From contig JAFLLC010000002.1 of assembly GCA_019162745.1 (NCBI GenBank), positions 1 through 32,306 on the forward strand: 32,306 nucleotides of DNA. Direction: 5' to 3'. The notes beneath the pieces are model-generated. The model was not told the origin of the DNA, made no database searches, and saw nothing but the letters and a program-made list of their open reading frames with translations. Shown here piece after piece: positions 10,501 to 32,095 of the stretch (position 1 is the first letter of the stretch; each line of letters opens with the position of its first letter). The stretch is from Deltaproteobacteria bacterium (GTDB taxonomy: Bacteria > Desulfobacterota > Desulfuromonadia > Geobacterales > Pseudopelobacteraceae). The translations under genes were made by a program, and so were the position numbers.

Positions 10501-11589
10501 AATCAGGTCAGTGAACTGCATCTTGTCGTACGCATCGATCAAGAGTCGCTTGGGGGGCCTGCCGGTGAAGCGTTTTACCGTCGCCACTGCAATGCCTTTG
10601 CCTATACACCCCACCTTACCGGTTCAGCCAAGCAGCACGATGAGATTCAAAATGCTCAAGCAATTGTTCGCTATGCTGAAGAGCAGGGGATTGGGATCAT
10701 CTGGTGTGGTTATGGCAATATCTCGCACCCGTTAATGAAGGCCATCAAGGAACTCAGGCCAAATCTAAAAGTGGTCTGTGATACTGATTCGGTCTGGTCT
10801 CGTTTTCTATTGAGGGAGTTGCCCTTGGAAAAAGACCCGGGACGGTGCCAACAGATTGAGTACGAAGGCAGGACAAAAGAGCGGGAAGAAGCTGAGTGGG
10901 TCAATTTTTGTGATGTCACAACCGCAGTATCCGAGGTGGACGCGGATTATTACAGGCAACTGGCTACAGACCCTTCACGCATCCATCTGTTTTCCAATGT
11001 GATTGATCTTGATTCTTATGCTGTTGCGCCCCCGCCCGCCCCAGACATGCGTAGCCCCTCCATGTATCTGGCCGGCAGTTTCTACTCAGAAACCTGCCCA
11101 ATGGTGCGTGCAGCCCGCTGGATCATTTCCGAAGTACTGCCAATTATTTTACGGACAACTCCCAATATCACACTCTATATAATTGGCAATGGTGCCGATC
11201 GGATGCTTGCCGATATCCGGCACCCAAATGTCACTATTAAGGGCAAAGTTCCTTCTGTATTACCGTATCTTTACCACACGGATGTTGCCCTGGTCCCTCT
11301 CATGTTTGAATCGGGAACCCGTTTTAAAATATTGGAGGCAGCAGCCTGTAATGTTCCGATTGTTTCTACCACACTTGGTGCCGAAGGTCTGCCGACGCAC
11401 CACGGAGTAGAATTGCTTATTGCAGATAACCCTATTGATTTTGCCAATGCTGTCATACGCTTGATTCGTGATACCAATTACGCGAAAAGTCTCGCTAGCA
11501 ATTGCAAGCAGTTGGTGAACCGGCTCTTTAGTATCAATTCATTGACTGAAGAGGCTCAGTCAATCACGCGATACCTTCTCACAAAATGA
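7585..11589 (+). CDS. Giant TPR / capsule-type / FkbM methyltransferase / GT4 fusion protein
   Basis: A 1334-residue cytoplasmic protein with four modules. Residues 1 to about 110 are TPR repeats. From about 135 to 640 lies a region resembling capsule polysaccharide transferases (Capsule_synth type), with QLIIKPHPGE around 473 and FGLVFTSTVGLEMACRG. An FkbM-type methyltransferase occupies about 740-915, with VVVDAGACAG at 750-759 and IKMDIEGEE around 857. The last part, from about 955, is a GT4/group 1 glycosyltransferase carrying FESGTRFKILEAAACNVPIVST, where Glu1242 and Glu1250 form the EX7E pattern. ATG 7585 follows TAAGGA at a good distance. Such proteins probably build and O-methylate a glycan on a TPR-bound acceptor. 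Flagellin is the likely acceptor from position alone. Module borders are estimates. Confidence 0.85.
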   Translation: MNYYLIQALKEIELANFVEADKLCRSSLESAGTSSDAYRTLGLVYLRQQKFNEAITCLETAFALDETDFQTGTLLVQAYESASKPRDAAELNKNRLRYFPSNAEITKHVVNYYQQDGTFDQKIQGIRSFVKKQTFANPDKKQRVLFGMSFTIYPPCRVHDFLLSQSLILRGAEIIPLVCGMAQEGECNVFGGIWGGMTGDPEHDCNKCLSNCQTCMEADNKLWREWAEIEPVAVSRYVTPALCEEKKHLVAQMDLSDYRNMVFDGMPIGHWASDVIRNNYMVGDDSLVPDLPRQVRHFFFNILLMIEGCRQALQDICPNVIVSNDSYYYQWAILEELARRQNIPFYSHWQGGRRIGWCYAYNEPSMELNLSRCWPSFREVPLLPFEERIVDDFLTARPTGGTMTLNTADPTQNSDSHAIEEIDFSKPTVLLAANVIWDLAALNREVQFNDMIDWACQTIEFFRRYPHWQLIIKPHPGELNKSLPATRQLLAEEIAKRIPQLPPNVVVCSPLTQLSVYDLIPHVRFGLVFTSTVGLEMACRGMAVVTGGVSVYHDMGFTFDPPTAQGYFETLCTLMHTPSITAVSRERAMFARKFLYLYLFRYYTALNLFDHSFTDHPTLLIHDGHELMPGANDVLDYVCDTILAHQPIVSKDRLPPLGRNIRGLYNFTLQETLAAARLVIDGYSGDVHEELLEESGGMQSVRLADSIYHVPKGIFKPGELSWVFQEVVQPSNTNPHAYENNSVTIHPGDVVVDAGACAGFFTRQALAKGANKVFAFEPLPAISGALQETFRHECMAGIVVVKSIALTSSTGTASFNDGDQFICEARLTSEGTHMVMTSTLDNFVHFENVDRIDFIKMDIEGEEMNAMMGAVETINRFKPRLAIAVYHQYENAALVRDILNANCPGYTVEFGGRYMFEVPHRPYMVYAYFDSNKTSFVPANRERLKILFTTPVIEHPPASGPALRIENSIKALNQVSELHLVVRIDQESLGGPAGEAFYRRHCNAFAYTPHLTGSAKQHDEIQNAQAIVRYAEEQGIGIIWCGYGNISHPLMKAIKELRPNLKVVCDTDSVWSRFLLRELPLEKDPGRCQQIEYEGRTKEREEAEWVNFCDVTTAVSEVDADYYRQLATDPSRIHLFSNVIDLDSYAVAPPPAPDMRSPSMYLAGSFYSETCPMVRAARWIISEVLPIILRTTPNITLYIIGNGADRMLADIRHPNVTIKGKVPSVLPYLYHTDVALVPLMFESGTRFKILEAAACNVPIVSTTLGAEGLPTHHGVELLIADNPIDFANAVIRLIRDTNYAKSLASNCKQLVNRLFSINSLTEEAQSITRYLLTK

Positions 11590-13900: not shown

Positions 13901-16450
13901 ATGAAACGCATTATGATTCTCCACCCAGAAGGGAATATCAACAACAACCCCAATCTCACCGGTATTGTCGAAATTTTTTGCGAGCAGGGTTTCGAGGTTG
14001 ATATATTTTTGCGCCGCCGTGACTTTCACACCCAGGAAGCGACTTGCTCCGGCGCAAAAATATTCTTAACAGATTTGGTTGATCCGCTTGATACTGCCAT
14101 TCTATTTGCCCCCGGCGTCCAGATTTCAGAAGAAACCATTGCCAGCTTTGAAAGGGCGTCCCGTCACTATGATCTGGTGATCGGAGTCGATCTTGGCATT
14201 GCTGAAGCCTGCATGGCCGCCAAAATTCTCAATGTACCCTACGGACTTATTTCATATGAATTATATTTTGGTGCAGAGACCGGCCCCGAGTTCAAGGAAT
14301 CCGAAATCATTGCATGTCACGACGTGTCATTTGCCGTATGTCAGGACAAAATCCGATCAGCTTGCCTTACTGCGGAAAACCGGATTCCTATTGATAAAAT
14401 TTTGAATATTCCAGTTGCCGGTCGTTCTGTTATAGCCAGAAAGCGAAGTTACGCCCTGCACGAAGCACTTGGCATCGATAGGAATAAAAAAATTGCGCTC
14501 TATATTGGTAATGCTATAGCAAAGTGGGCAGGTTTTGAAGAACTCCTTGCCAGCACCCTGACATGGGACGACTCCTGGGTACTAGTGCTGCACCATCGTT
14601 ATGGGACTATTATGCAGCAATTTCTGGACAGCTTTGGGTGCGGAAAGAATGTCTACGCTTCTCCATTTAATACGTTAACATTTGATGAAATGCACCGATT
14701 GCTCAACGCGGCTGACATCGGCATCGCATTTTACACCCCTCTTAAGGGCAGTCTAACGCACACCGGGCTTAATCTTGAACACATTGGCATGGCTTCAGGC
14801 AAGATATCGACGTACCTCCAACATGACCTGCCTATTCTGATTAACGAATTGGGTGAAATGAGCGAGCATGTCAGGAACTATTCTTTGGGCAGGGTTGTCA
14901 CTGATTTTTCCGATATTGGCCGAATTCTTGGGCGGATTGATACTAATGAGCTCAGCAAGTTTACCGACAATGGTCATGGGTTTTTTAGCTCGCATCTTGA
15001 CCTTAATGAGACAATCAAACCGTTACTAGATATTATTTCAAAACTTATAAAAAATAATACCCATAAGCAATATATTCCGAAAGCACAATTGTCAAACATG
15101 CCCATACAGAGGCAACTCTGCCCGCGCATCTCAATAATCACCCCTTCCTACAATCAAGCTGAATATCTTGAGGAATGCATTGATTCTATCTTAAGTCAGA
15201 ATTACCCAAATCTTGAATACATCATTATGGATGGTGGCAGCACGGATGGCTCTGTTGAAATCATCCGAAAGTACGAAAAGTATCTCAGCTACTGGCAGTC
15301 CTGCCCCGACGGTGGCCAGTATGCCGCCATTAATGCCGGGTTTGCCCGCAGCACAGGCGATATCATGGCCTGGCTCAATTCTGACGACAAATATCATCCC
15401 AACGCTTTCTTGAAAGTGGCCTGTGCATTTGCCGAACACCCGGAAGCATCATGGATCACAGGTGTTCGCACGATATGGGATGCTAAAGGAGCGATTTCTG
15501 GATTTGAGAAAACACCAGCATATTTTTCGCGGAGAAAGTTTCTTTCAGAAAATTACGGGAACCCCTGCGTCCAGCAGGAAAGCACCTTTTGGCGTCGTTC
15601 CTTGTGGGATATTTCAGGCGGCTACTTGAATACCGCCTGCACCCTTGCGGCAGATGCGGAGCTATGGCTTCGGTTTTTTCGTCACGAATCGCTTTATTAT
15701 CTCGAAGCCCTTTTAGGGGGGTTCAGGTTGCATGGTAATCAACGATCGCTGCTCCATATGCAGACATATATCGCAGAAATTAAAAAAGCTGTTGAGCAGG
15801 AGTTATCTCAGTCTGCGGGAAATGGTTCCTTTGTCCCGATGCCCCCCAATATCTGTATTCCATCTACCATTTACCTCGAGTATGCCTGCCGAAACCTAAT
15901 ACCACTCTTTAATCCACCGCGCCATCAATCAGGCCACCAATATGTCAAAAACATTATTGAGCGGGTACAGGATGTAAGTAATGGGCGATTTGAGCTCGCA
16001 TCTATTCTTAATGCGGAACTTGATCTGTGGCGTGGAGATGAAGAGATAATAGCGCATATAAAAAAGCAGCTTCGGCAATCACTCGAAGAAAAGGAACGTG
16101 CAACTGTCTTAACGTCTAAAGGGGAAGAGTATTACCTATCGGGTAATCTGGATGAAGCTTTAAAAGCGACTTTCGAAGCGCTTGAACTTTGGCCCACCTC
16201 GGTAGAGAGCATGGTTAACCTGGCAGTAATGCTACATCAAAAAGGACGTCATGAAGACGCTGTACAGTACCTAGTTAAAGCGAAAGACATGAACCCCGGT
16301 CTGGCGTCAGCCTATCGTAATCTTGCAATAATCCTGTTTGAACAGGGTGATCGCGCAAAAGCTCAATATACTCTGGAGTATTATCTCGCAAAAAGCCCTG
16401 ATGATGTAGAGATGGAAACATTTTACCGGAGGTTGATGTCATGGGCTTGA
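13901..16450 (+). CDS. GT4-like / GT2 / TPR multidomain glycosyltransferase
   Basis: An 849-residue protein. Residues 1 to about 390 resemble a GT-B (GT4-like) transferase, starting [11 protein letters not shown], though the usual EX7E motif is not obvious. Residues about 405-640 are a GT2 (GT-A) domain with [25 protein letters not shown] and the metal-binding NSDD at 493-496. The C-terminal part, about 730-849, is TPR repeats ([20 protein letters not shown] and following). I chose ATG 13901, with GAGAG upstream. The in-frame ATG at 13859 overlaps the methyltransferase by over 30 bases. Two transferase domains on one chain suggest sequential sugar addition. The GT2 gene downstream starts ten bases before this stop. 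Confidence 0.85.
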
Positions 16451-17244
16451 TTCTGCCTGCACCTTGGGAGCGTGCTATCAGGCCCGCAGCTCCAGCCATC
16501 TCGGTTATTGTTTCAACCTATGCCTCGGAAGCGTTTATGGCAGAATGCTTGGAAGACCTCGTCGGTCAAAGTATTGCTGATCAGATTGAGGTCGTTGTCG
16601 TCGATGCCAATTCACCGGAGGACGAACGGTCTATTGTTGAAAAATTCCAACGACATCATCCAAACATTCATTATATCCGGACGCCGGAGCGTGTCGGTAT
16701 CTACGCCGCCTGGAACATGGCCATCCGCCGCGCTTCAGGGAAATATCTGCTTTCATTCAGTACCAACGACAGGCTGCGGCGTGAAGCGTGCCAGATTCTG
16801 AAGGACGCACTTGATGCACACCCTGAAGTCATGCTGGTGTATGGTGACAGCTATATTACCAGGCTGCCTCACCAGACTTTTGAAAATCATGTCCGCTCCG
16901 GGGAGACCCGTTGGCCGGACTATTCCTACGAGTATCATCTGCGTACCTGCTGTATGGGGCCGCATCCCATGTGGCGTCGTTCGGTGCATGAGTACGTCGG
17001 TTATTTTAACGAGTCTTACCGCGCGGTGAGTGACCAGGATATGTGGCTGCGTATTGGGGAGCGTTTTCCAATTCTGCATGTCCCGGAATTCACCGGTTTA
17101 TACTGGAAGTCTCTTGATGGTATTTCCAACCAGACGAACATCACGTATCCGGAGATGGACGACATTTTTCCGCTCTACCAGGAGCGCTATCGTCAGCGGC
17201 TTGAACGTATCGAACAACATCGGAAGAGGTTCGAGACGCCTTGA
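16441..17244 (+). CDS. GT2-family glycosyltransferase
   Basis: A 267-residue family 2 glycosyltransferase, transferring a sugar from a nucleotide donor. The N terminus [26 protein letters not shown] is typical, followed by [38 protein letters not shown] and, later, [12 protein letters not shown]. The usual DxD metal motif appears as STND, which is seen in some relatives. No transmembrane helix is apparent, so the enzyme is probably soluble and could act on a protein in the cytoplasm. GGAGG at 16428-16432 sits eight bases before ATG 16441, and the gene overlaps the previous one by ten bases, indicating coupling. Confidence 0.87.
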
Positions 17245-17290: not shown

Positions 17291-19147
17291 ATGAGCCATG
17301 ATGAAATTGTGTGCAGCAAGGCGATGGCCATGAAGGGCAGCGGTTCTCTACAGGAGGCCCGCTCGCTCCTCGAGGATCATGCGAGGACCGCTCCTGCCTC
17401 ACCCTCACTCTTGCGCCTGCTCGGTGAAATCTGCGGACTTCAACTCGATCATGTCTCTTCGATACGGTACCTTGAAGCCGCCAATACTCTGGAACCGGGC
17501 AATATGGAATCCGGTTTCATGCTGGGAGTCGAATACTTTCTGACCGGGAGATACTCCGAATCACTTTCCACCATGAAACAGCTCATAAAAGCTTTTCCGG
17601 GAGTATCCACCCTGCACGACTTTCGCGGTCTGGCTCTGCGGGAGATGGGGCAATTTCCGGAAGCGGAGGCTTCCTTCAGGGAAGCGCTCTGTCATGATCC
17701 CCGCTCAGTATGGCCGATGGTGAACCTTGCAAACCTGCTTGTAAAACTATGCCGATTTGACGAAGCGGAGCAACTTCTTGTAAAGGCACTTGAGTTTCAG
17801 CCGGAGCTTGCCGCTGCACACAATGACCTTGGGCGACTCTACCAGAAGCAGGGCCGGATTTCATGCGCGGTAGACCATTTTAGACGGATTTTAGAATTGG
17901 AACCTGCTAACCGCATTGCGGCAAGCAACCTTCTCTATTCACTTTGCTATTCTGACAAAATTTCTCCCGAGGCAATTACTGAGGAGCATTTCGCGATCGC
18001 GAAGCGTCTGTACCCATGGAGAACCACCGGAAAAGAGGATCTTCTGCCGCGTTCAAGCGCTTCGAAGTTACGAATAGGTTATATCTCCAGCGATTTATGC
18101 GAGCATTCCGTATCATTTTTCATTGAGCCGGTTCTCGTAAACCATGACTCTAGCCGGTTTGAGGTATTTTGCTATTCGAATCGAAATGTCCCCGACGAAA
18201 CAACCTTGCGAATGCGCAGTCTAAATCTCGCTTGGCGCGATATTTACGGTATTGAACCTGCTGATGTAGCGCAGATGATTGCTGCAGATCGGATTGATAT
18301 CCTTGTGGATCTCTCCGGGCATACAGCCCACAACCGTCTCGAAGTCTGCGCCTTGAAACCAGCGCCGATTATGTGCACCTGGTTGGGATACCCCCATTCG
18401 ACAGGGATGGGGCAATTTGATTATTATATTTCAGATGCAATCTGTGATCCTCCGCGATTGGTCGAGCATCTCTACAGTGAACAGTTATGGAGGTTACCGG
18501 ACCTTTTCTGTTGTTATCTCCCGCCTGTGGAATTTCCGCCGATAGCTCCGCCGCCCTACCAGCAAGGAGGGAGCATAACTTTCGGCAGTTTTAATAACGT
18601 GGCAAAGGTCAGCGATACAGTTATCAGTGCCTGGACAGATATCCTCCTGCAGGTTTCCGGCTCACGTCTCCTGCTGAAAAGTGCCTCCCTCGGGGGCGCC
18701 TCCATCCAGCAGCATCTTAAAGAACGCTTTTCAGTGCATGGCGTTCAGCCGGAGAGGATTCAATTCATGGCCTATACGCCAACGACACTGGAGCATCTGG
18801 CGCAATACGCCCGGGTAGATATTGCGCTCGACAGCTACCCTTATCATGGCACAACAACGACCTGCGAGGCTCTCTGGATGGGGGTGCCGGTGGTCACGCT
18901 GGCCGGCAGGACTCACCTTTCAAGGGTTGGCGCATCAATCATGGCAAACATTAACCTGGAAGAACTGGTGGCAACAACGATCGAGGAGTATGTTTCCCAT
19001 GCCGTTGGCCTGGCCAATGACAAAGAGCGCTTGCTGGATCTGAGATGCGGACTGCGCGGGAAAATGTCCGGTTCTCCCCTAATGGATTACGCAGGTATGA
19101 CCAGAAAGCTCGAAGAGGCCTATTATGCCATGACCGGGAAGACATAA
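17291..19147 (+). CDS. TPR / SPINDLY-family O-linked glycosyltransferase
   Basis: A 618-residue protein of the GT41 (O-GlcNAc transferase/SPINDLY) type, which attaches a sugar to Ser or Thr of proteins. TPR repeats fill residues 1 to about 215. The catalytic part runs from about 258, with LRIGYISSDLCEHSVSFF, VDLSGHTAHNRLEV, WLGYPHSTGMGQFDYYISD, FGSFNNVAKV and LDSYPYHGTTTTCEALWMG. These match the family's UDP-sugar binding segments, including the conserved Lys in the FGSFNNVAK stretch. ATG 17291 has only a weak ribosome site. Its TAA overlaps the ATG of the next, paralogous gene. Sited a few genes before flagellin, it is a strong candidate flagellin O-glycosyltransferase (inference). Confidence 0.92.
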   Translation: MSHDEIVCSKAMAMKGSGSLQEARSLLEDHARTAPASPSLLRLLGEICGLQLDHVSSIRYLEAANTLEPGNMESGFMLGVEYFLTGRYSESLSTMKQLIKAFPGVSTLHDFRGLALREMGQFPEAEASFREALCHDPRSVWPMVNLANLLVKLCRFDEAEQLLVKALEFQPELAAAHNDLGRLYQKQGRISCAVDHFRRILELEPANRIAASNLLYSLCYSDKISPEAITEEHFAIAKRLYPWRTTGKEDLLPRSSASKLRIGYISSDLCEHSVSFFIEPVLVNHDSSRFEVFCYSNRNVPDETTLRMRSLNLAWRDIYGIEPADVAQMIAADRIDILVDLSGHTAHNRLEVCALKPAPIMCTWLGYPHSTGMGQFDYYISDAICDPPRLVEHLYSEQLWRLPDLFCCYLPPVEFPPIAPPPYQQGGSITFGSFNNVAKVSDTVISAWTDILLQVSGSRLLLKSASLGGASIQQHLKERFSVHGVQPERIQFMAYTPTTLEHLAQYARVDIALDSYPYHGTTTTCEALWMGVPVVTLAGRTHLSRVGASIMANINLEELVATTIEEYVSHAVGLANDKERLLDLRCGLRGKMSGSPLMDYAGMTRKLEEAYYAMTGKT

Positions 19148-22100
19148 TGATTGATATCGATCAGATACTTGCTGAGGCGGCCCGGTTGAGTAGCCAGGGC
19201 GATTCCGCTTCTGCGCTGCATCTTTTGGAAGAAACGGTGAAAACGGCTCCCGGTCATACCGGCTTACTGCATGGACTTGCCCGGCTTTGCCGGGATTGTG
19301 GTGATCATGTGGCGGCGTTGAAATATTTGCGAAGACTTGAGGAGTTGTGCCCAAACGATTCCGATCTGATTGTGCCGTTGGGAATTGAATTGGCAGAAAC
19401 GGGAGATTACAGAACTGCCTTGGATTATTTCAACTGTTATTCCAATAGCCATGCTGAAAATACATCTCTGCGCCTCTTAATGGGTATATGCTGCGGAAAA
19501 CTGAAAATGAATCAGCAAGCGCAGGCTCATTTTGAAAAAACGATCGTTTTGGCTCCATCAGATGCTCTTAACCACATCTATCTGGGGGCGTACTTTGTAG
19601 ATATCCACCAGATGGAGAAGGCAGAAAAATGCCTCTTGGAGGCCATCAGACTGGCCCCGGACAATGCGCTGGCCTATAATAATCTGGGGAGGGTGTATAA
19701 ATTTCAGGGCAAATCGGAAATGGCTGTGCGTAATTTCCGCATCGCCCTGGAGTTGGATCCGGAGAATCGGGTTGTAGTCAATAATCTGTTGCTTAATCTG
19801 AACTATCTGCAAGATGTGGACCCTGGGAAGGTGTTTGAGGAACACAGGTCGCTTTGTGCTCGGGTCTACCAGAGCACTCCCGGGCACCGGGAGCAATCTG
19901 CGCATTCCGGGGATAAACTGCGGATCGGATATGTCTCAGGTGATTTTCACAATCATTCCGTAGCGTATTTCCTTGAACCGGTTCTGCAAAATCATGATCG
20001 ACAACAGTTCGAAATATTTTGCTATTCAAATGATGCGGAAGAGGATGAAACAACCCTGCGTTTAATGTCCCTGGTAGACTTCTGGAAACCAATCATCGGC
20101 TTGAACGATGACTCTGCTGCAGACCTTGTTGTTCAAGACGGTATAGATATACTGATTGATCTTGCCGGGCACACGTTGGGGAACCGTCTCGGTCTCTTTG
20201 CCCTAAAGCCGGCTCCGGTCCAGGTCTCATGGATCGGTTATCCCCATTCAACAGGTCTGGCCCAGATGGATTACTATATTACCGATGCTCTGTGTGATCC
20301 GCCGGGAATGACGGAAGGGTTTTATACGGAACGTCTTGTCCGGCTGCCCGATGTTTTCTGCAGCTATCTTCCGCCGGGGTGTTCTCCAGATGTCACGCCC
20401 CCCCCTTGTACTAAAACCGGCATAATAACCTTCGGCAGCTTCAATAATTTTGCAAAAGTTAATAAACAGTTGATTCGGTTGTGGGCTGAAATTATGGGTC
20501 GGGTACCAGATTCGAGGCTACTGCTGAAGAGTATTTCTCTTGGAAGCCCCGCAACCCAGAGAGAAGTGCTGGAAGCCTTCGCTATGCACGGGATCTCTGC
20601 TGACCGGATTGCCCAGTTGAGTGTTGTAAAATCGTCACAAGAACATCTTGCCCTGTATTCTCAGGTGGACATTGCGCTGGATACCTATCCTTACCATGGA
20701 ACTACCACCACCTGTGAAGCGTTGTGGATGGGGGTGCCTGTCGTGATTTTGGCGGGAAACACCCACGCGTCAAGGGTCGGTGTTTCATTGTTGACAGCGG
20801 TTGGGTGCCCTGACCTGATTGCTCATTCACTCCACATGTATGTAGAAGCAGCCGTTAAACTCGCATCGGATGTGGCACACATCTGTTTCCTGCGAGAGCA
20901 TCTGCGGAAAATGTTCACTGAATCAGCTCTAATGGATTCTGCAAGACTTGTGCATGATCTGGAGATTGCTTTTCATGAAATGCAGAGTAATACTGCCGAG
21001 AAATCTGATGCGGGATTGAATTCAATGATTGCCCAGGCCGAGGATGCATTTAAGGAATTGCGGCTTGAGGAGGCGGAAGCTCTTTACCGCCAGCTTTCAG
21101 GACGTTTCCCTCTTAATCCGAAATTTCATAATGATCTGGCAACAGCTCTGGATAGCCGTGGCCGCTATCTTGAGGCAGCAGGCCATTATACCAAAGCTCT
21201 TTTTCTCGATGATGCGTTCACGGCCGCGCGTTTTAATCTGGCAAATACACTCAAGCGTCTTGGCGATACAAAGGGATGCGAAGAAAACCTGCGGGTTATT
21301 GTGGGAAAATGTCCCGATTATGCTGAAGCGCTGCAGAATCTGGGGCTGCTCCTTTCAGAATCAGGGCGCTTGGCGGAAGCAATACCTTTACTTGAAAAAG
21401 TAGTTGCCGGCGACCCTTCACGTATCGGGGGGTGGGCAATCCTGGGAGAACTCCATTACCGTCTCGGCACCAATCTTGGGCGGGCGCTGGAGTGTTTTGA
21501 CCGGGTGCTTGAGGAGTTGCCTGACAATTCTGCGGTTCTGAACAGCAAAGGGTTGGTTCTGCATGAGCAGGAGGATTACTCTGGTGCTGAAAACTGTTTT
21601 CGCGAGGCCCTTCGACATTCCCCGGATGATTCCGAACTGCTCAACAATCTTGGACTGACGTTTCTCGCGAGGAGTCTGCCCGATCCTGCCCTGGAATACT
21701 TTAACCAGGCGCTGATGCTCAAGCCGGGTGAACCATCGGCGACTTTCAACCGCGGCATGGCATTGCTCGTAAAAGGCGATTTCGATAGAGGTTGGCCTGC
21801 TTACGAACAGAGATTTAATAAAATGGACCCGGTTTTTCTTGAGCATATCGATAAACCATACTGGCGGGGAGAACCTCTTAATGGTAGAACGCTGCTTGTG
21901 CGCTCAGAGCAGGGCTATGGTGATGCTATCCAGTTTTCACGTTACCTTGCGGAACTGCCCAGGTACTGCGGTAGAATAGTTTTTGAATGCCATGATCGAC
22001 AGATAGCGCCTCTCTTCGCAAATTTACCAGGTGTTGATGAGCTGGTTATTCGCGGAGAGAAACAACTTGAAGTTGATCTCCAGGTCCCCTTGATGAGTCT

Positions 22101-22683
22101 GCCGCTGCTTTGTGGCACAGGTTCTCGGATGCCGGGTGCATCGGGTTATCTGAAGGTAGACCCGGCCTTGCATAATAGCTGGGGAACGTTGATCCATAAG
22201 GAGAAGGGCAGCGGCAATCTGGCGGTGGGTATTGTCTGGGGAGGGAGGCAGACACGTTTGAATGCCGACCGCTCGGTAGAATTTTCCCGGCTTGCACACC
22301 TGTTTGAAATTAAGGGTGTAAAGTGGTTCAGTCTGCAGGTCGGTCCGGATGCCGGAATACTTGAAGCAGGGGATATTAATATTGTCGATCTCGGTTCACG
22401 TTTTACCGATTTTGCGGACACTGCTGCGTGCATTTCGTCCCTTGACCTTGTGATTACTATAGATTCGGCTGTGGCGCACCTCTCCGGAACTCTGGGAGTC
22501 CCTGTCTGGATTCTTCTCAAGCTGGGATCGGACTGGCGCTGGCTTCTTGAACGGAGCGATTCTCCCTGGTATTCGTCAGCACGTCTCTTCCGCCAAGAGC
22601 AATCCGGGGGATGGGATGATGTCATCGTTACGATTGCGAATGTGCTGCAGATTGTTGTGAGAAAGGAAGAAGCGGAATTATGA
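19147..22683 (+). CDS. TPR / SPINDLY-family transferase fused to a second TPR + GT9-like module
   Basis: A 1178-residue protein. Residues 1 to about 245 are TPRs and about 257-608 a GT41/SPINDLY catalytic region (LRIGYVSGDFHNHSVAYF, IDLAGHTLGNRLGL, WIGYPHSTGLAQMDYY, FGSFNNFAKV, LDTYPYHGTTTTCEALWMG). From about 625 to 880 there is a second TPR array. The rest resembles the GT9 heptosyltransferase fold, with TLLVRSEQGYGDAIQFSRY, LVITIDSAVAHLSGTLG and the C-terminal SDSPWYSSARLFRQ. I chose ATG 19147, which overlaps the previous TAA; an in-frame earlier ATG lies inside the previous gene. The first half is a paralogue of its upstream neighbour; the second half is a paralogue of each half of the convergent gene at 26278-29007. 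Confidence 0.9.
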   Translation: MIDIDQILAEAARLSSQGDSASALHLLEETVKTAPGHTGLLHGLARLCRDCGDHVAALKYLRRLEELCPNDSDLIVPLGIELAETGDYRTALDYFNCYSNSHAENTSLRLLMGICCGKLKMNQQAQAHFEKTIVLAPSDALNHIYLGAYFVDIHQMEKAEKCLLEAIRLAPDNALAYNNLGRVYKFQGKSEMAVRNFRIALELDPENRVVVNNLLLNLNYLQDVDPGKVFEEHRSLCARVYQSTPGHREQSAHSGDKLRIGYVSGDFHNHSVAYFLEPVLQNHDRQQFEIFCYSNDAEEDETTLRLMSLVDFWKPIIGLNDDSAADLVVQDGIDILIDLAGHTLGNRLGLFALKPAPVQVSWIGYPHSTGLAQMDYYITDALCDPPGMTEGFYTERLVRLPDVFCSYLPPGCSPDVTPPPCTKTGIITFGSFNNFAKVNKQLIRLWAEIMGRVPDSRLLLKSISLGSPATQREVLEAFAMHGISADRIAQLSVVKSSQEHLALYSQVDIALDTYPYHGTTTTCEALWMGVPVVILAGNTHASRVGVSLLTAVGCPDLIAHSLHMYVEAAVKLASDVAHICFLREHLRKMFTESALMDSARLVHDLEIAFHEMQSNTAEKSDAGLNSMIAQAEDAFKELRLEEAEALYRQLSGRFPLNPKFHNDLATALDSRGRYLEAAGHYTKALFLDDAFTAARFNLANTLKRLGDTKGCEENLRVIVGKCPDYAEALQNLGLLLSESGRLAEAIPLLEKVVAGDPSRIGGWAILGELHYRLGTNLGRALECFDRVLEELPDNSAVLNSKGLVLHEQEDYSGAENCFREALRHSPDDSELLNNLGLTFLARSLPDPALEYFNQALMLKPGEPSATFNRGMALLVKGDFDRGWPAYEQRFNKMDPVFLEHIDKPYWRGEPLNGRTLLVRSEQGYGDAIQFSRYLAELPRYCGRIVFECHDRQIAPLFANLPGVDELVIRGEKQLEVDLQVPLMSLPLLCGTGSRMPGASGYLKVDPALHNSWGTLIHKEKGSGNLAVGIVWGGRQTRLNADRSVEFSRLAHLFEIKGVKWFSLQVGPDAGILEAGDINIVDLGSRFTDFADTAACISSLDLVITIDSAVAHLSGTLGVPVWILLKLGSDWRWLLERSDSPWYSSARLFRQEQSGGWDDVIVTIANVLQIVVRKEEAEL

Positions 22684-23711
22684 AAGTTGCCTTTCCTGCC
22701 GGTTCATTCCATGGATGGGGAATTGCCGGTACATATTTAAACCACGAAATTAGCCGTCTCGCACCGGTAGATGGGGTGACACTGCACTGCATCTCTGGTC
22801 ACGATTTCAAGCCGTTTGAAGAGGCTGCCTGGAACCGTATCAATATCGGCTATTGTTTTTTTGAATATGCCCATTTAGCCTATCCGTATATTGCCGAGGC
22901 GGCTGGCCGTTGGGACCATATCGTCGCCGGTTCAAGTTGGTGTGAAGGGCATCTGCGGCAGGGCGGCATGGGAAGAACCAGCACTATTTTGCAAGGCATT
23001 GACCCGATATATTTTTCTTGCCAGGTTCCACGCCATGACGATGGCCGTTTTATAGTTTTTTCCGGTGGAAAATTCGAGTTCCGCAAAGGGCATGATATTG
23101 TTATTGCCGCCATGAGCGTCTTTATGCAGCGCCATGCCGATGTATGGCTTTCGTGCTCCTGGCACAATGCCTGGCCGGCTTCTCTCAAGACCATGGAACA
23201 GACGCATCTGATTGATTATGTATGGCAAGACACTCCCTGCCGTGAGTTGTTATACGATACGGTTGCCCGCAACGGGCTCGATCCAAATCGGGTCCTGTTG
23301 CACCCCCCACTCCATAACAGCAGAATGCCGCTGGTCTATGGTGAAAGTGACATAGGGGTGTTCCCTAATCGTTGTGAGGGGGGCAACAATATGGTTATGT
23401 GTGAGTACATGGCCTGTGGACGCCCGGTGATCGCCTCTGACCGTACCGGTCATGCCGACGTGATCACCCCTGACAATGCATTTTGTATGACTTCATATAT
23501 GCCGATTACTGCTACTCTTGGCGGCCATGATGCGGGCGTCTGGCCGGAGCCCTCTGCCGAGGAGCTATTGGAATTGTTGGAGCGGGCCTATAGAGATCGA
23601 TATATTGCCAGGACAAAGGGTGTGATGGCTGCCGGCGACATGACAAATCTGACATGGGGTGGTGCAGCCCGGCAGTTTCATGGATTGGCAGAACAACTTG
23701 CAAAACGCTGA
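22680..23711 (+). CDS. GT4-family glycosyltransferase
   Basis: A 343-residue retaining GT-B glycosyltransferase. The phosphate-binding style segment FSGGKFEFRKGHDIVIAAM and the EX7E-type motif CEGGNNMVMCEYMACGRPVIASD are both present in the C-terminal half. The N terminus MKVAFPAGSFHGWGIAGTYLNHE contains the glycine-rich acceptor-side loop. It overlaps the SPINDLY fusion by ATGA and is the last gene before the flagellin promoter. I saw no terminator after its TGA, so transcription might continue into the flagellin gene. The sugar and acceptor are unknown; addition to a flagellin-linked glycan is the contextual guess. Confidence 0.88.
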   Translation: MKVAFPAGSFHGWGIAGTYLNHEISRLAPVDGVTLHCISGHDFKPFEEAAWNRINIGYCFFEYAHLAYPYIAEAAGRWDHIVAGSSWCEGHLRQGGMGRTSTILQGIDPIYFSCQVPRHDDGRFIVFSGGKFEFRKGHDIVIAAMSVFMQRHADVWLSCSWHNAWPASLKTMEQTHLIDYVWQDTPCRELLYDTVARNGLDPNRVLLHPPLHNSRMPLVYGESDIGVFPNRCEGGNNMVMCEYMACGRPVIASDRTGHADVITPDNAFCMTSYMPITATLGGHDAGVWPEPSAEELLELLERAYRDRYIARTKGVMAAGDMTNLTWGGAARQFHGLAEQLAKR

Positions 23712-23791: not shown

Positions 23792-23818
23792 TAAAGTGCC
23801 GAATCCGGATGCCGATAT
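23792..23818 (+). promoter_or_regulatory. Sigma-28 (FliA) flagellin promoter
   Basis: TAAA at 23792-23795 and GCCGATAT at 23811-23818 are separated by exactly 15 bases, matching the sigma-28 consensus TAAA-N15-GCCGATAA at all but one position. Transcription should begin around 23825, giving a leader of about 60 bases before the flagellin ATG. This places flagellin among late, class-3-type flagellar genes. Confidence 0.88.
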
Positions 23819-23885: not shown

Positions 23886-24701
23886 ATGGCAATTTCAGAC
23901 GTTTCATTGACAGCAGGTATGCGTAGCAACCTTCTTCAGCTGCAAGGCACCGCAAAGTTGATCGACCGTACACAGGAGAGACTCTCCACTGGTCGTCAGG
24001 TAAACACTGCTCTTGACAACCCGACCAACTTCTTTGCTTCACAGGCAGCACAGAACAGAGCAGCTGACTTTTCGATACGTAAAGACGGCATGGGAGAGGC
24101 AATCCAGAACGTTAAAGCTGCTGACGCCGGTATTTCCGCCATCACAGCCCTGGTTTCTGCCGCCAAAGGTCTTACCGAGGCAGCAACAGGTACTTCAAGC
24201 ACGGCTGACCGTTCTACATTTGCCGTACAGTTTAACCAGATCCGTAGCCAGATCGATACCCTGGCCAGTGACTCCGGCTATCGCGGCACCAACCTGCTGA
24301 CAGGTGCCAATCTGGCGGTCAACTTCAACGAGAACGCATCGGCAACTCTGACGGTTAATGGTTTCACAGGGACATCTGGAGGCCTCGGTATAGGTACTGC
24401 TACAGGTAACTGGAGCACTGCCAGTGACATTACAACCGCTGGTAACAACCTTACAACGGCTACTGACACCCTCCGTTCGCAGTCCAAGACTTTGGCCGGC
24501 AACCTAAACATCATCACAACACGTCAGAATTTTACTGACCAGATGATCGGCACCCTGCAGACCGGATCTGACAACTTGACACTGGCCGACATGAACAATG
24601 AAGGCGCCAACATGCTGATGCTGCAGACCCGTCAGTCCTTGGGAACCACAGCTCTGAGTATGTCTTCACAGGCTGCGCAGTCTGTCCTCAGACTCTTCTA
24701 G
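23886..24701 (+). CDS. fliC: Flagellin, short alphaproteobacterial-type
   Basis: A 271-residue flagellin, the subunit of the flagellar filament, exported by the flagellar type III system. The N-terminal D0/D1 helices are visible (LIDRTQERLSTGRQVNTALDNPTNFFASQ). The C-terminal helices follow (LRSQSKTLAGNLNIITTRQNF, NNEGANMLMLQTRQSLG and the terminal QSVLRLF). The middle, about residues 140-190, is short and rich in Thr, Ser and Gly, so surface domains D2/D3 are absent. The LRLF end and the NEEGANML-like stretch resemble Caulobacter and Bradyrhizobium flagellins more than enterobacterial ones. ATG 23886 follows AAGGGG by nine bases. Ser/Thr residues of the central segment are probable acceptors for the glycosyltransferases upstream (inference). 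Confidence 0.96.
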   Translation: MAISDVSLTAGMRSNLLQLQGTAKLIDRTQERLSTGRQVNTALDNPTNFFASQAAQNRAADFSIRKDGMGEAIQNVKAADAGISAITALVSAAKGLTEAATGTSSTADRSTFAVQFNQIRSQIDTLASDSGYRGTNLLTGANLAVNFNENASATLTVNGFTGTSGGLGIGTATGNWSTASDITTAGNNLTTATDTLRSQSKTLAGNLNIITTRQNFTDQMIGTLQTGSDNLTLADMNNEGANMLMLQTRQSLGTTALSMSSQAAQSVLRLF

Positions 24702-24792: not shown

Positions 24793-25425
24793 ATGAGAAT
24801 CGAAGGCAACGACCAGCGATTGGCGGCTGCAACGGCCATTCAGATGCAGCAAACAGGGGTCCAGCAGATGCTAACTCCAAAAACCGCACAGCAGCAGGCT
24901 GCCCAAAAAGTGGGTGCAGAAAATACGGTTCAGTCTATTGCGGGTGACAAGGTTTCCATCAAGGTTGAACTCCCTCAAAAAACAGTAGACACGCTGCAAC
25001 ACATGGGCAATATCTCCGATTTCCTCAATTCAGTGGCGACAAATCTTCGCCAGACCAGTGAAGGGCTTACGGCTGCAAATGCTGTCGCAGAACAGATGAA
25101 GGCATCGCTGGACAAGATAATCAAAAACTATCCGCCATATTCGATTGACAGCAAGGAGCGGATTGATCAGTTGATGCAGTACTCGTCTTTGCGAAAGCAG
25201 ATTATGAGCCTGATGACTCCGCCTCCACCACAGCCGGTATATGAAAAAGTGAAGCACTTGTGGGAAGGGCTTACAAGTGGTATTGCAGGAACCATCCAAA
25301 CTCCGGAACTTCCAGTAAATGCCCCGGATTCTCATGTTGCGGCCGCAAGTAAACAGCTTGATGCAATATCCGGTCAAATAGGTCTGGTGCAGGAATCAAT
25401 GAGCAGTTCAGTGATGAGATCCTAG
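24793..25425 (+). CDS. Unrecognised protein of the flagellin operon
   Basis: A 210-residue soluble protein that I do not recognise. The first 45 residues are rich in Gln and Ala (AIQMQQTGVQQM, TAQQQAAQ). A predicted helical core follows at about 60-140 (VDTLQHMGNISDFLNSVA, LTAANAVAEQMKASLDKIIK, QYSSLRKQIMSL). A proline-rich linker PPPPQP lies near 143-148 and a second helical part closes the protein. It has no signal peptide or membrane segment. ATG 24793 follows GAGGTGA, and flbT begins three bases after its stop. Position between flagellin and flbT implies a filament-related role, such as secretion, chaperone or regulator. The FlaG hallmark motifs are not evident. Confidence 0.8.
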   Translation: MRIEGNDQRLAAATAIQMQQTGVQQMLTPKTAQQQAAQKVGAENTVQSIAGDKVSIKVELPQKTVDTLQHMGNISDFLNSVATNLRQTSEGLTAANAVAEQMKASLDKIIKNYPPYSIDSKERIDQLMQYSSLRKQIMSLMTPPPPQPVYEKVKHLWEGLTSGIAGTIQTPELPVNAPDSHVAAASKQLDAISGQIGLVQESMSSSVMRS

Positions 25426-25428: not shown

Positions 25429-25827
25429 ATGCCGCTAAGACTGACATTGAAACCTGAAGAGCGGGTTATCGTGGGTGGTGCCGTCATTAAAAATGGCCAT
25501 ACCGTCGCCCACCTGCTGATTGAGAACAAGGTGCCCCTCCTCAGGGAAAAGGATATCCTGACCGAAGCTGAAGCGACATCGCCGTGCAGGAGAGTCTATC
25601 TGGTTGTCCAATTGATGTATATCGGCGACGGGCTGACATCAGAACTTGCCCAACTGTACTGGGATCTTGTCCGCGATGTCCTTGCGGCGGCACCGAGCAC
25701 AAAGGACTTGATTTCGCAGATAAGCGCGTATATTGTTGACACTGATTTCTACCCCGCGCTGAAGATCGCAAAAAAACTGATTTCCTACGAAGAGGAGCTA
25801 CTTACACATGCAACAACATTCGGTTAA
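25429..25827 (+). CDS. flbT: FlbT-family flagellin regulator
   Basis: A 132-residue protein matching the FlbT family in length and pattern: MPLRLTLKPEERVIVGGAVIKNG, then LLIENKVPLLREKDILTEAEATSPCRRVYLVVQLMY. In Caulobacter, FlbT acts after transcription, binding flagellin mRNA leaders and promoting decay until the hook is complete. A similar role here would fit the leader hairpin in front of fliC, but that is inference. The ribosome site before ATG 25429 is weak, and the stop of the preceding gene lies only three bases away, so translation is likely coupled. The last 20 bases overlap flaF. Confidence 0.9.
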   Translation: MPLRLTLKPEERVIVGGAVIKNGHTVAHLLIENKVPLLREKDILTEAEATSPCRRVYLVVQLMYIGDGLTSELAQLYWDLVRDVLAAAPSTKDLISQISAYIVDTDFYPALKIAKKLISYEEELLTHATTFG

Positions 25828-26185
25828 TGCCTATACAGCGATTCACAAGGAAGCTTTGAGCGGACGGGAACTGGAAGCGTCAGTGCTGTCCAGAGCCGGT
25901 CTCATGCTGAAGGGTGTCAAGGATAACTGGGGCGCTCCCGATCGTGACCAAAAACTGCTGGAGGCTGTTAAATTCAATCAGAAGGTATGGAGCTTTTTTC
26001 AGGCGGAGCTGTCTGATCCGGAAAATCCGCTGCCGAAAAACCTGCGTGAAGATATTCTCAATCTCAGTATTTTTATCGACAAACGTCTCTTCGAAGTGTT
26101 GGCTTTTCCCGATCCTGAGAAACTCTCTATCGTCATTGATATCGATTTCAATATTGCCGCCGGATTGAGGACAAATCCCGAGTAA
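25808..26185 (+). CDS. flaF: FlaF-family flagellin biogenesis protein
   Basis: A 125-residue protein matching FlaF, which in alphaproteobacteria supports flagellin translation and secretion and works opposite to FlbT. Characteristic segments are AYTAIHKEALSGRELEASVLSRAG, LEAVKFNQKVWSFFQAEL and LREDILNLSIFIDKRLFE. GAGGAG lies before ATG 25808, which is inside the 3' end of flbT. It is the last gene of the flagellin operon and is followed by a hairpin terminator. Confidence 0.9.
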   Translation: MQQHSVNAYTAIHKEALSGRELEASVLSRAGLMLKGVKDNWGAPDRDQKLLEAVKFNQKVWSFFQAELSDPENPLPKNLREDILNLSIFIDKRLFEVLAFPDPEKLSIVIDIDFNIAAGLRTNPE

Positions 26186-26274: not shown

Positions 26275-29007
26275 TTATTCTGCTTGTCCTGATTTGTATA
26301 GTGTTGATAGGCGGGAAGATATCCTGCTGATTACGGGACCCCATTCACCCGGAGCCTCTTGTCGGAAAAGATGCATTGATGGATACCAGGGGGAGTCACC
26401 GCAATTAAGCAGCCAGCGCCAGTCAGCTGAATACTTGAGCATCACCCAGACCGGTTTGCCCATTGCCCCGACTAAGTGGGCGACAGAAGTGTCGACCGTT
26501 ATAACAAGGTCCAGGTTGCTGATTAAGGAGGCACTGCCGCTGAAATCATGGATTTTGCTTGTGATGTCGATCAAATTTGGATGGTTAGGACTCGGTTCCC
26601 CGATCTGGAGTGAGTACCAGTAGAAATCTTGACAGTCTAAGAGAATGGAAACAAAATCAAAAGGGACTGAGCGGTTCCGGTCGCTGCTCTGATCCCGCCT
26701 GCCCGCCCAAACTAGTCCTATTCTCATTCGTTCCTGTTTTTCATGCTGTTGTAGCAGAGGTTTCCAAGCCAAGGACTTGGCTGGAGGAATCTTGATATAC
26801 GAATGGCATTCCGGGATAGTCCGCAAATGGGTCCTGAATACCATTGGGAGGCTCATGATTGGAAGCTGATAATCAACCGTTTCATTGAATGCACCCCTTG
26901 GATAAACTGCTGTTACACCATCTACGCACTCAAGTAGCGAAATAATTGACGGGTCCTGAGCCTCAACAATTACAACGGCTCCATTTTTTGCCAGCAACCG
27001 CGCGTAACGTATAAACTGTATAGTATCACCATAGCCCTGTTCAGCATGAATCAGAATACGTTTCCCGTGTATGGGCTGGCCCTCCCAGCGGGTTATATTG
27101 CGATGCCTCTGAATTTCAGGGTCAAACTTCAGGAAGCGCCATTCATAATCGGTCCATCCCTCTCGAAAACGCCCCAGTTGGAGAAGAACCAAGCTCCGGT
27201 TAAAATGTCCATCAGCGTGGTCCGGTTGCAGAGCTAAAAGCCTATCATAGCTTTCCAACGCCTCACACAGCCTCCCCGTAGCTCGTTGTATGGTGCCAAG
27301 ATTGTTCAAAGCCTGGGCATATTCAGGTTTGATACCAAGTGCCTGTTGATAACATTTTTCTGCCTCCTCATACTGGTCAACTGATTGCAACGCCATGCCC
27401 AGACCCAGGAGACACTGATAGTAACCCGGATCAGTATTAAGCGCCCGTCGGAATAAACTGATCGCCTCCTGTGTCATTCCCTTTTGAAAACTAACTTGTG
27501 CCAGTCCGCAAAGCACGTCAGGCATATTAGGCATAATTGTTTCTGCTTGGGTGAAAATGAGTTCTGCAGACTCAAGAGCGCCCTGTTTAAGAGCATAAAA
27601 TCCCTGTGAAAGCAGAGTACCTACCTGATCGTGTTCAGAAACCTTTAGGTCAACTATTGATTGAAACTCTACAAGAGAGTTTTTTATTTCCTTAACGACA
27701 ACTCCCCAATCTCCCTGAATGCTCTGTCGGAAAATCCGAATAGATGGATACCAGGGTGAGTCGCTGCGTTCAAGCAGCCAACGCCAGTCCGGTGCGAACG
27801 CAAGCATCAGCCAGACTGGTTTCCCCAATGACCCGGCTAGGTGGGCGACAGCTGAATCAATGGTAATCACAAGGTCGAGCTGTTCTATTAGTGCCGCTGT
27901 GTCCGCAAAGTCACGTATTTGGTTTGTAAGGTCAACGACTCTCTTGGCAAGAGGCGATAGATCAAGCTGTCGCTTAGCATCGCCCATTTGAAGAGAAAAA
28001 AACTGGATGTCTGCTAGATTGGCGAAGGATGAGAAAACTTCCAGCGGTAATGAGCGGGAAATATCATTCCGGTGGATACTGCTGCCAGCCCAGACTATAC
28101 CGATCCTCGGATAAGGATACTTGGATGTTTGCTTTTGCCACTTTTCGCGCCGTTCTGATGTTATCAAAAGATAGTGGCAAGAAGGTATGTTTTCTACCGT
28201 TGTGCCGAAAATTCTGGGCAATGTTAGAAACGGGGCTTGACAATCACACACAGGGAGCTCTTCACCAAACCCGGCGACAAAAAGTACTCCTTTTATGCCT
28301 TGAAAAAGTGAAACTAACTGAGGGTGACACTCCAGTACGACATTTCCTCCGCACTCTACTACCATCGGGACATAGCGCACAAACTGAATGGCATCACCAA
28401 AGCCCTGCTCAGCATGCAGGAGTATAGTACGGCCATCGAGAGGAGATCCGTCCCATAACGGGATGTTGTTATGACGAACCGGCGACGTAAAATCGGGCTT
28501 TTTCCAGCGCCATTCGTATTCCTGCCACCCTTCCTCATATTTTCCTTGCAGCAGTAGATTCAAGGCAAGATTCCAGTGTGCTGCGGCAAAACCGGGATCA
28601 AGCTGTATTGCCCTTCGGCAATCAACCTCCGCTTCAGTAACCTTTCCCATCGCCTGCAGAGCCGTGCACCTCACCGCTAGTGGGACGGGTGATGCTGCAA
28701 GGAGCTCTGCTGCTCTCAAAAAGCTGTCAGCCGCTTCGGTAAAACGTCCGAGCGCCATCAGGCTGTTGCCAAGATTGTTGTAGGCTTCGCCCATTTCAGG
28801 GGTTATTTGAATAGCGTGCAGATATGAGGCAACCGCCTCGTCATAGCGCCCAAGGTCGTGCAGAGCCGCTCCGCTGTAAAGTTGCAGCGTTGCATTCAAA
28901 GGGTCCAATGTTATGGCAGCCTGAAAACAGACCAGAGCTTGTGCGGTATTGCCGGCCTGTAATAATGAATAACCTTTTGCAAACAATTGATGTACCTGCT
29001 TATCCAT
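26275..29007 (-). CDS. Duplicated TPR + GT9-like protein
   Basis: A 910-residue protein containing the same module twice: TPRs at about 1-165 with a GT9-like region at 190-436, then TPRs at 475-620 with a GT9-like region at 646-910. Matching motifs in the two halves are ILLHAEQGFGDAIQFVRY and ILIHAEQGYGDTIQFIRY, LVITIDSAVAHLAGSLGKPVW and LVITVDTSVAHLVGAMGKPVW, and SDSPWYPSIRIFRQ and GDSPWYPSMHLFRQ. I chose ATG 29007, just before the first TPR; an in-frame TTG at 29049 is possible. GT9 enzymes include heptosyltransferases, but TPR-fused relatives in flagellar loci have no firm substrate. It lies alone on its strand, convergent with flaF. Confidence 0.88.
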   Translation of the reverse strand: MDKQVHQLFAKGYSLLQAGNTAQALVCFQAAITLDPLNATLQLYSGAALHDLGRYDEAVASYLHAIQITPEMGEAYNNLGNSLMALGRFTEAADSFLRAAELLAASPVPLAVRCTALQAMGKVTEAEVDCRRAIQLDPGFAAAHWNLALNLLLQGKYEEGWQEYEWRWKKPDFTSPVRHNNIPLWDGSPLDGRTILLHAEQGFGDAIQFVRYVPMVVECGGNVVLECHPQLVSLFQGIKGVLFVAGFGEELPVCDCQAPFLTLPRIFGTTVENIPSCHYLLITSERREKWQKQTSKYPYPRIGIVWAGSSIHRNDISRSLPLEVFSSFANLADIQFFSLQMGDAKRQLDLSPLAKRVVDLTNQIRDFADTAALIEQLDLVITIDSAVAHLAGSLGKPVWLMLAFAPDWRWLLERSDSPWYPSIRIFRQSIQGDWGVVVKEIKNSLVEFQSIVDLKVSEHDQVGTLLSQGFYALKQGALESAELIFTQAETIMPNMPDVLCGLAQVSFQKGMTQEAISLFRRALNTDPGYYQCLLGLGMALQSVDQYEEAEKCYQQALGIKPEYAQALNNLGTIQRATGRLCEALESYDRLLALQPDHADGHFNRSLVLLQLGRFREGWTDYEWRFLKFDPEIQRHRNITRWEGQPIHGKRILIHAEQGYGDTIQFIRYARLLAKNGAVVIVEAQDPSIISLLECVDGVTAVYPRGAFNETVDYQLPIMSLPMVFRTHLRTIPECHSYIKIPPAKSLAWKPLLQQHEKQERMRIGLVWAGRRDQSSDRNRSVPFDFVSILLDCQDFYWYSLQIGEPSPNHPNLIDITSKIHDFSGSASLISNLDLVITVDTSVAHLVGAMGKPVWVMLKYSADWRWLLNCGDSPWYPSMHLFRQEAPGEWGPVISRISSRLSTLYKSGQAE

Positions 29008-29077
29008 GAGAAGCCACCGAGTATAGATGCGTCTAGCTTGATTCCCCAAGGGGAAACAAATTTACCGTGCGTTTTTC

Positions 29078-29131: not shown

Positions 29132-29332
29132 ATGGCAACAAATCTTGCAATTGATGATTCGCTTATAATTGAAGCCCAAAAACTAGGAGGACATTCAACA
29201 AAAAAAGCAACAGTTTCGCATGCTCTTATGGAGTATATACAGCACCGCCGTCAACTGGAAATTCTGGATTTATTTGGTGCAATACCATTAGATGAAAAAT
29301 ATGATTATAAAAAACAACGGACGCGAAGATGA
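29132..29332 (+). CDS. vapB: VapB-family antitoxin
   Basis: A 66-residue antitoxin of the VapB (DUF2191-like) kind. The N-terminal ribbon-helix-helix DNA-binding part is NLAIDDSLIIEAQKLGGHSTKKATVSHALMEYIQ. The C-terminal tail (LDLFGAIPLDEKYDYKKQRTRR) would wrap the toxin and cover its active site. GGAGGTGA precedes ATG 29132 at a good distance. It overlaps vapC by ATGA, and a perfect palindrome overlaps its promoter, which suits the usual autorepression. Confidence 0.88.
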   Translation: MATNLAIDDSLIIEAQKLGGHSTKKATVSHALMEYIQHRRQLEILDLFGAIPLDEKYDYKKQRTRR

Positions 29333-29733: not shown

Positions 29734-29785
29734 ACAAGCAAGGCAAATACAATTACATACTGAACCCTTACACTTTCAGGCTGTG

Positions 29786-30435: not shown

Positions 30436-30451
30436 ACCAACCTCCCAAAAC

Positions 30452-30501: not shown

Positions 30502-30550
30502 CATACAACCAGATTAGTGCATCTAATTGACTGCCCTGTCAGATTCATAA

Positions 30551-32075: not shown

Positions 32076-32095
32076 AATGCACGATAGCACTTTTA

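Follow-up and report, generated by a model that had tools for sequence, protein, structure and literature searches.

What do two overlapping genes for SPINDLY-family glycosyltransferases do in front of a flagellin gene? This question is raised by a 32,306-nucleotide (nt) stretch of DNA (positions 1 to 32,306 of contig JAFLLC010000002.1, hereafter the window) from a Deltaproteobacteria bacterium of the order Geobacterales, family Pseudopelobacteraceae (assembly GCA_019162745.1; GC content 48%). The first open reading frame (ORF) of the pair, ORF1 (17291-19147, + strand), encodes a protein of 618 amino acids (aa) with tetratricopeptide repeats (TPRs) and a glycosyltransferase (GT) module of family GT41. 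The second, ORF2 (19147-22683, + strand), encodes an 1178-aa protein in which the same arrangement is followed by further TPRs and a module resembling family GT9 (GT9-like). On the sequence comparisons presented here, both are probably cytoplasmic O-glycosyltransferases dedicated to flagellin and built from TPR-GT units.

Organization of the gene pair

The stop codon of ORF1 and the start codon of ORF2 overlap as TAATG (19145-19149, + strand), as read directly from the DNA, and both frames are long and on the same strand, in agreement with the coupling proposed in a preliminary description of this region. An ATG also occurs further upstream in the ORF2 frame, at 19045, but the overlap results from a start at the ATG at 19147. 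The two proteins are 43% identical across 612 aa and are therefore paralogues, both matching the GT41 family PF13844 (E 9.7e-56 for ORF1 and 9.2e-68 for ORF2), so that the tandem described earlier was recovered. TPR families preceded each GT41 module and again the C-terminal part of ORF2, where PF01075, the GT9 heptosyltransferase family, gave a match below its cut-off (E 0.0064); the second protein does add a TPR and GT9-like half, as had been noted. From Pfam, our own profiles and the helices of a structural model, ORF2 was divided at an approximate boundary into a first half (19147-20985, + strand; model helices 4-203) with about six TPRs and GT41, and a second half (20986-22683, + strand) in which the GT9-like module is preceded by its own block of about eight TPRs. 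Our profiles placed GT41 at residues 256-612 and the GT9-like module at residues 867-1170.

GT41 modules and their active site

The PF13844 matches comprised two stretches in each protein, one for each lobe, and scored 189.6 bits (ORF1) and 229.2 bits (ORF2) against a cut-off of 25. Arabidopsis SPINDLY was the best PDB sequence match of both ORF1 (E 1.3e-116) and ORF2, which justifies the family name given to them at first. ORF1 residues D268, H272, S273, N435, K439, H502, Y518 and T521-523 align with SPINDLY D491, H495, S496, N661, K665, H728, Y744 and T747-749, respectively, and ORF2 has identical residues at all these positions by alignment (H270, K437 and Y516 among them). Both proteins contain the lysine corresponding to SPINDLY K665 and to K842 of O-GlcNAc transferase (OGT; GlcNAc, N-acetylglucosamine), and the histidine corresponding to SPINDLY H495 and OGT H558. 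By this alignment, the GT41 active-site residues are intact and SPINDLY-like in both proteins. Among 108 GT41 modules of the order, the K665 equivalent was found in all 108, that of H495 in 103, of D491 in 98 and of N661 in 93. Less constant were S496 (32 modules, with P or A in 72), H728 (73) and T748 (82), while the Y744 position was aromatic in 106 modules (Tyr in 86, Phe in 13, Trp in 7).

In the account of PMC9715652, mutation of K665 leaves SPINDLY inactive, and Y744 makes the pocket for the sugar narrower; XcOGT and TtOGT likewise carry Tyr at the Y744 position and have little or no O-GlcNAc activity. Because the pocket tyrosine is present in ORF1 and ORF2, and by comparison with these three enzymes, our guess would be a GT41 donor smaller than GlcNAc. 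The tyrosine is not diagnostic of an O-fucosyltransferase, as XcOGT and TtOGT share it (PMC9715652).

The sole candidate for GDP-fucose supply in the window is a GDP-mannose 4,6-dehydratase (Gmd)-like ORF at 366-1217, which its profile matches only as far as position 180 of 342; by eye, the remainder seems to lie in another frame, and the gene may be broken or mis-sequenced.

Like plant SPINDLY, a GT41 protein O-fucosyltransferase, ORF1 and ORF2 place TPRs before a GT41 module with equivalent active-site residues. They differ from it in the number of TPRs before GT41 (about six by the model, against 11 in SPINDLY according to PMC9715652), in standing in tandem, and in the fusion of ORF2 to a second TPR-GT unit.

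Linkage to flagellin across the order

Downstream of the pair lies the presumed acceptor, a 271-aa flagellin (23886-24701, + strand; PF00669 E 3.1e-12), followed by a conserved 210-aa protein (24793-25425, + strand), FlbT (25429-25827, + strand; PF07378 E 6.3e-38) and FlaF (25808-26185, + strand; PF07309 E 6.5e-32). A sample of the order was anchored on FlbT: 89 stretches, together with the window and a second locus of the same genome on contig C56, gave 91 loci from 88 of the 89 FlbT-positive genomes, the FlbT fragments of G022 being left aside, and these loci were scored with profiles built from the window and C56 modules. Five of the 89 stretches (L110, L127, L131, L133 and L138) had been shifted off centre towards known matches, and 17 of the 89 were shorter than 15.4 kb or otherwise shorter than 19 kb, mostly at contig ends.

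TPR-GT41 and/or TPR-GT9-like units were found at 72 of the 91 loci, 41 of which had both, 23 the GT9-like unit only and 8 GT41 only; among loci of at least 19 kb the corresponding numbers were 38, 16 and 6, and 11 had neither. The module nearest to FlbT in the 72 loci was at a median distance of 1.0 kb and at most at 6.1 kb, so the off-centre stretches are not behind the linkage. At the level of whole genomes (141 in the order), GT41 was found in 88, FlbT in 89 and both in 70 (Fisher p 2.8e-7, uncorrected for kinship), and a flagellin was present in 89 of the 91 FlbT loci. The link between the gene pair and flagellin, first drawn from the window, is much strengthened by this order-wide pattern. 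Bacterial relatives of OGT and SPINDLY are mostly without known acceptors; here the genome points to flagellin, a small and abundant one, through the duplicated set of this genome and through a whole order, some members of which are in culture (Trichlorobacter lovleyi, Pelobacter propionicus). Two genomes of the sample were recognized as these species by plasmid stretches 100% identical to NC_010815.1 (T. lovleyi SZ) and NC_008607.1 (P. propionicus DSM 2379). The FlbT locus of T. lovleyi contains two GT41 genes and no GT9-like gene, that of P. propionicus one GT41 and a GT9-like pair. In the three alphaproteobacterial plasmid FlbT loci that were opened, our profiles found no TPR-GT41 or TPR-GT9.

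The 210-aa protein, for which neither Pfam nor NCBIfam gave a match within the limits applied, stands between flagellin and FlbT in 79 of the 91 loci and is perhaps an undescribed flagellar accessory protein.

A second locus in the same genome

Contig C56 carries, in the same order as the window, a TPR-GT41 protein (643 aa), a TPR-GT41-TPR-GT9 protein (1193 aa), flagellin, the 210-aa protein, FlbT and FlaF, and the eight PF13844 matches of the genome (four proteins) are all at its two flagellin-FlbT loci. In the window the flagellin gene is preceded by a sigma-28-like promoter (23792-23818, + strand) with one mismatch to the consensus, and the C56 flagellin is also preceded by such a one-mismatch site. 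Directly upstream of ORF1, with a 46-nt gap, is a gene for a GT2 glycosyltransferase (16441-17244, + strand; PF00535 E 1.2e-20), and the C56 locus contains a stretch 67% identical to it. No gene of family GT4, such as the one that follows ORF2 in the window, was found between fusion and flagellin on C56, and the search for GT4 gave one match in the whole genome.

Between the two loci, identity is 97% for FlbT and FlaF, 90% for the 210-aa protein and 80% for flagellin, against 51% for the TPR-GT41 proteins and 49% for the fused proteins. The enzymes have diverged far more than the regulators, and the comparison of 97% for FlbT with 49-51% for the transferases suggests that glycan variation is what changes. 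In the GT41 tree ORF1 pairs with its C56 counterpart (Shimodaira-Hasegawa-like approximate likelihood ratio test, SH-aLRT, 99), and the halves of the fusions also pair between loci, with SH-aLRT of 94 for the GT41 halves and 89 for the GT9-like halves. Because all three pair in this manner, the tandem and the fusion are, as judged from these trees, older than the split of the two loci. An assembly or frame artefact might be thought of for the fusion, considering an assembly of 237 contigs and relatives that carry the modules apart, but the genome has the fusion twice, on separate contigs; the copies are 49% identical, neither is interrupted, and each half pairs with its counterpart, which leaves this explanation a negligible probability.

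Maf proteins, and the possibility of other acceptors

Matches to the MptE-like family (PF01973), that of Maf, were found in 24 genomes and were strong (E <1e-30) in 12. In five of these, belonging to two genera (G012, G017, G018, G030 and G040), a strong Maf takes the place near FlbT, about 2 kb from it; the other seven are genomes without FlbT. A strong Maf was thus present in 5 of the 19 FlbT loci without TPR-GT units and in none of the 72 with them (Fisher p 2.5e-4, again uncorrected for kinship), and the two never occurred in one fetched FlbT locus, an avoidance that is expected if both kinds fill one role. Unlike Maf, ORF1 and ORF2 have no PF01973 among their Pfam matches at E 0.01. The one MptE-like match of the window genome is on contig C53, and in four TPR-GT genomes (G057, G058, G065 and G072) weak matches lie 14-15 kb from FlbT.

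As a separate observation, locus L069 (genome G083), which has no TPR-GT unit, contains near its start a 3388-aa frame with a weak MptE-like match near FlbT.

Several observations weigh against a role of the pair in flagellin glycosylation. Neither TPR-GT41 nor TPR-GT9-like was found at 19 of the 91 FlbT loci, and 14 have neither TPR-GT nor a strong Maf, several of them being cut by contig ends. GT41 occurs in 18 genomes without FlbT, and the order has further GT41 chains of 770-1380 aa (about 230 bits) that are located away from FlbT, so the family is not solely for flagellin. Polysaccharide clusters often have TPR and GT genes around them, and GT2, FkbM and sugar-synthesis genes are present in this cluster as well. 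Finally, the AlphaFold models of ORF2 and of its second half, made with three window sequences only, have mean pLDDT values of 67.8 and 52.2 and are of low quality beyond the TPRs, so that they do not confirm a GT-B fold for the C-terminal module. The richness of the cluster in sugar genes and the FlbT-less genomes with GT41 would also fit proteins that glycosylate another protein, an exopolysaccharide or lipopolysaccharide and stand near flagellin by chance or through shared regulation. The FlbT linkage at 72 of 91 loci, the replacement by Maf in five genomes and the second copy with its second flagellin speak against another acceptor, which we regard as very unlikely.

The GT9-like module

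The match of PF01075 to ORF2 spans 34 residues and scores 16.3 bits; the module on its own reaches 18.3 bits, which is not over the cut-off of 22 either. Some relatives' modules exceed it, for instance with 24-27 bits, and all 18 GT9-like modules tested matched PF01075 at E ≤0.01. Alignment with canonical GT9 by hhalign covered 54 columns of a C-lobe motif with a probability of 94%. Against the GT41 profile no likeness was found, no PDB sequence matched the module up to E 10, and a single fold comparison of the model returned matches to TPR proteins only. The module shares this C-lobe motif with the GT9 heptosyltransferases and differs from them in scoring below the family cut-off and in being fused to TPRs. 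On these alignments 'GT9' is a distant likeness and a loose label: the earlier name GT9-like is fair, if weak. Across 206 modules of the order's loci, E921, G925, R932, W1031, H1111, R1131, W1132 and Y1142 are invariant, D926 is kept in 205 and D1106 in 197. By sequence, this family has no solved relative. In plasmid records the TPR-GT9-like half of ORF2 was matched in 157 of 72,556, all at less than 60% identity.

Canonical GT9 enzymes transfer sugars onto sugars, and the preliminary description had supposed that Ser/Thr would receive a first sugar from GT41 and that the fused GT9-like domain could extend it. The fusion and adjacency of GT41 and GT9-like modules and the 41 of 91 FlbT loci holding both agree with such an extension, which may occur without being obligatory: in 11 FlbT-positive genomes that gave no GT41 match, a TPR-GT9-like unit is nevertheless present at the flagellin locus (some of these genomes are incomplete, and four have a completeness of at least 99%), eight have GT41 at the FlbT locus without a GT9-like gene nearby, and the GT9-like half has its own TPR block. 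Since each unit stands alone at FlbT in some genomes, GT41 and TPR-GT9-like are not mutually required in general. The GT9-like module as an obligatory extender was rejected on account of the GT41-less genomes, and a GT9-like half that strictly extends the GT41 sugar appears unlikely.

Nonulosonic acid as a possible donor

The TPR-GT9-like unit could instead be a transferase of the FlmG type that places nonulosonic acid directly on flagellin. As described for Caulobacter in PMC7591256, FlmG consists of an N-terminal TPR domain and a GT-B-like domain of 288 residues and acts with pseudaminic acid made through NeuB, and flmG of Phenylobacterium adjoins flbT, flaF and flagellin according to PMC2529317. 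The second half of ORF2 and a further protein of the window at 26275-29049, compared by layout alone, resemble FlmG in having TPRs and then a GT of about 300 residues beside FlbT, FlaF and flagellin. The window also contains a NeuB over the cut-off (TIGR03569, 410 bits) and, both below cut-off, a PseF-like cytidylyltransferase and LegC/PseC-like aminotransferases. On the other side, a strong NeuB match (E <1e-30) is missing from 44 of the 71 genomes in which TPR-GT units stand at FlbT, and these 44 include the genomes with the closest relatives of the GT9-like module, G006, G023 and G138; FlmG is a single unit needing pseudaminic acid (PMC7591256), whereas the units here are chained and also occur in genomes without strong NeuB. 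An FlmG-type role seems to us quite unlikely. A nonulosonate as general donor of the TPR-GT units was rejected on the same count, and it follows that nonulosonic acid is not a likely donor of the units in the window; a different enzyme encoded in the island may be the one that handles it.

Fusion partners and module chains

At the 3' end of ORF2 the reading frame overlaps by ATGA (22680-22683) with a gene for a 343-aa glycosyltransferase of family GT4 (22680-23711, + strand; PF13692 E 2.6e-11). A GT4-TPR-GT9 protein of 899-929 aa was found in G006, G023, G138 and four other fetched loci, and in the three named genomes GT41 is a separate gene, the converse of the window. The window GT4 shares 69% identity with residues 9-342 of the GT4-TPR-GT9 protein of G006 (914 aa), and among the matches listed the fused GT4 parts are 57-69% identical to it. 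The GT9-like modules of the window, C56, G006, G023 and G138 form one clade (SH-aLRT 95) in a tree from which 23 loci were omitted as near duplicates. By these relationships, one and the same TPR-GT9 unit is fused with GT4 in some relatives and with GT41 here, and the partner left unfused is encoded next to it; swaps of fusion partners are a classical indication of parts that work in one pathway. Relatives of GT4 were found in 26 of 58 genomes, fused in four and in frames of their own size in 22, and FlbT is present in 26 of the 26 GT4-bearing genomes versus 14 of the 32 without GT4 (p 1.3e-6, uncorrected for kinship).

Within the sampled loci, 204 frames have at least one module, one gene being counted twice where stretches L133 and L157 overlap; 79 contain one GT41 and 53 one GT9-like module, and the remainder are chains. 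Downstream of FlaF, on the - strand, the window itself encodes a TPR-GT9-TPR-GT9-like protein of uncertain start (26275-29049; two modules by our profile, PF01075 E 5e-10). Ten frames, of 2202-2254 aa or nearby, hold six GT9-like modules beside flagellin (loci L073, L076, L067, L134, L136, L142, L143, L144, L147 and L124), and six GT41 modules occur in single frames of 3750 and 3769 aa at loci L149 and L150. Mixed chains number four: GT41-GT9 in the window and on C56, GT9-GT41 in G123 and GT9-GT9-GT41-GT41 in G089. Because the chains of G089 and G123 are far from those of the window in the GT41 tree (with a long branch for G123), GT41/GT9-like mixing seems to have arisen more than once, as far as this tree can tell.

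A single GT41-TPR-GT9 chain, an order unfamiliar to the preliminary description, was also new to the domain-order searches made, which returned only the two copies of this genome: none was found elsewhere in the 91 FlbT loci, in 10 further array loci, in 20 further long GT41 frames or in the matches of a phylum search (395 sampled genomes, E 1e-120). This holds among the matches listed and opened; G042:C14, G062:C14 and G098:C438 are examples of those left unopened. One apparent GT41+GT9 chain, in G499, was rejected, as it crosses three stop codons and resolves into adjacent separate frames of GT41x2 and GT9. In the open literature, searched by titles and the openings of abstracts and exclusive of subscription papers and preprints, nothing was found on GT41-GT9 fusions or on flagellin glycosylation in Geobacterales.

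Proposed working of the probable flagellin transferases

If ORF1 and ORF2 are flagellin O-glycosyltransferases, the TPR superhelix of each unit would hold unfolded or monomeric flagellin; in the two characterised kinds of TPR-linked flagellin transferase used here for comparison, TPRs carry the flagellin specificity, as described for Caulobacter FlmG in PMC7591256 and for Maf-1 in PMC13317340. The two SPINDLY-like GT41 units would each move a small hexose or 6-deoxyhexose, rather than GlcNAc, onto Ser/Thr, and the TPR-GT9-like unit would be a transferase in its own right, adding one more sugar either to what GT41 has made or at different residues. Another step might be added or supplied by the overlapping GT4 gene. 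With GT41 and TPR-GT9 in one chain, their ratio would be fixed and flagellin could be handed between active sites; the fusion can be read as coupling two steps or two sites, both units being of the flagellin-docking kind. Natural fusions and splits of GT41, GT9-like and GT4 provide tests of sequential versus separate-site action.

A broader picture, of an assembly-line-like system in which TPR-GT units (GT41, GT9-like and GT4-linked) change places, fuse and multiply to as many as six per chain, their number and order writing the set of sugars and each flagellin having its own fast-diverging enzymes, is a possibility that we put forward tentatively.

GT41 enzymes of the SPINDLY family (COG3914) have been reported before in enterobacterial flagellin islands (PMC4875605). 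Those enzymes are said mostly to carry methyltransferase domains, and the available text of that paper mentions no second TPR-GT9-like half.

Neighbouring genes in the window

A 1334-aa protein (7585-11589) with FkbM methyltransferase and C-terminal GT4 domains, and an N-terminus that appears TPR-like by eye, is another multi-domain candidate for flagellin modification. A B12-binding radical SAM protein (5249-6766) is encoded within the nonulosonate gene set. Beyond the flagellin set, at 29329-32138, there are two putative PIN/VapC-like frames, together with what is presumably an AbiEi/AbiEii-like pair.

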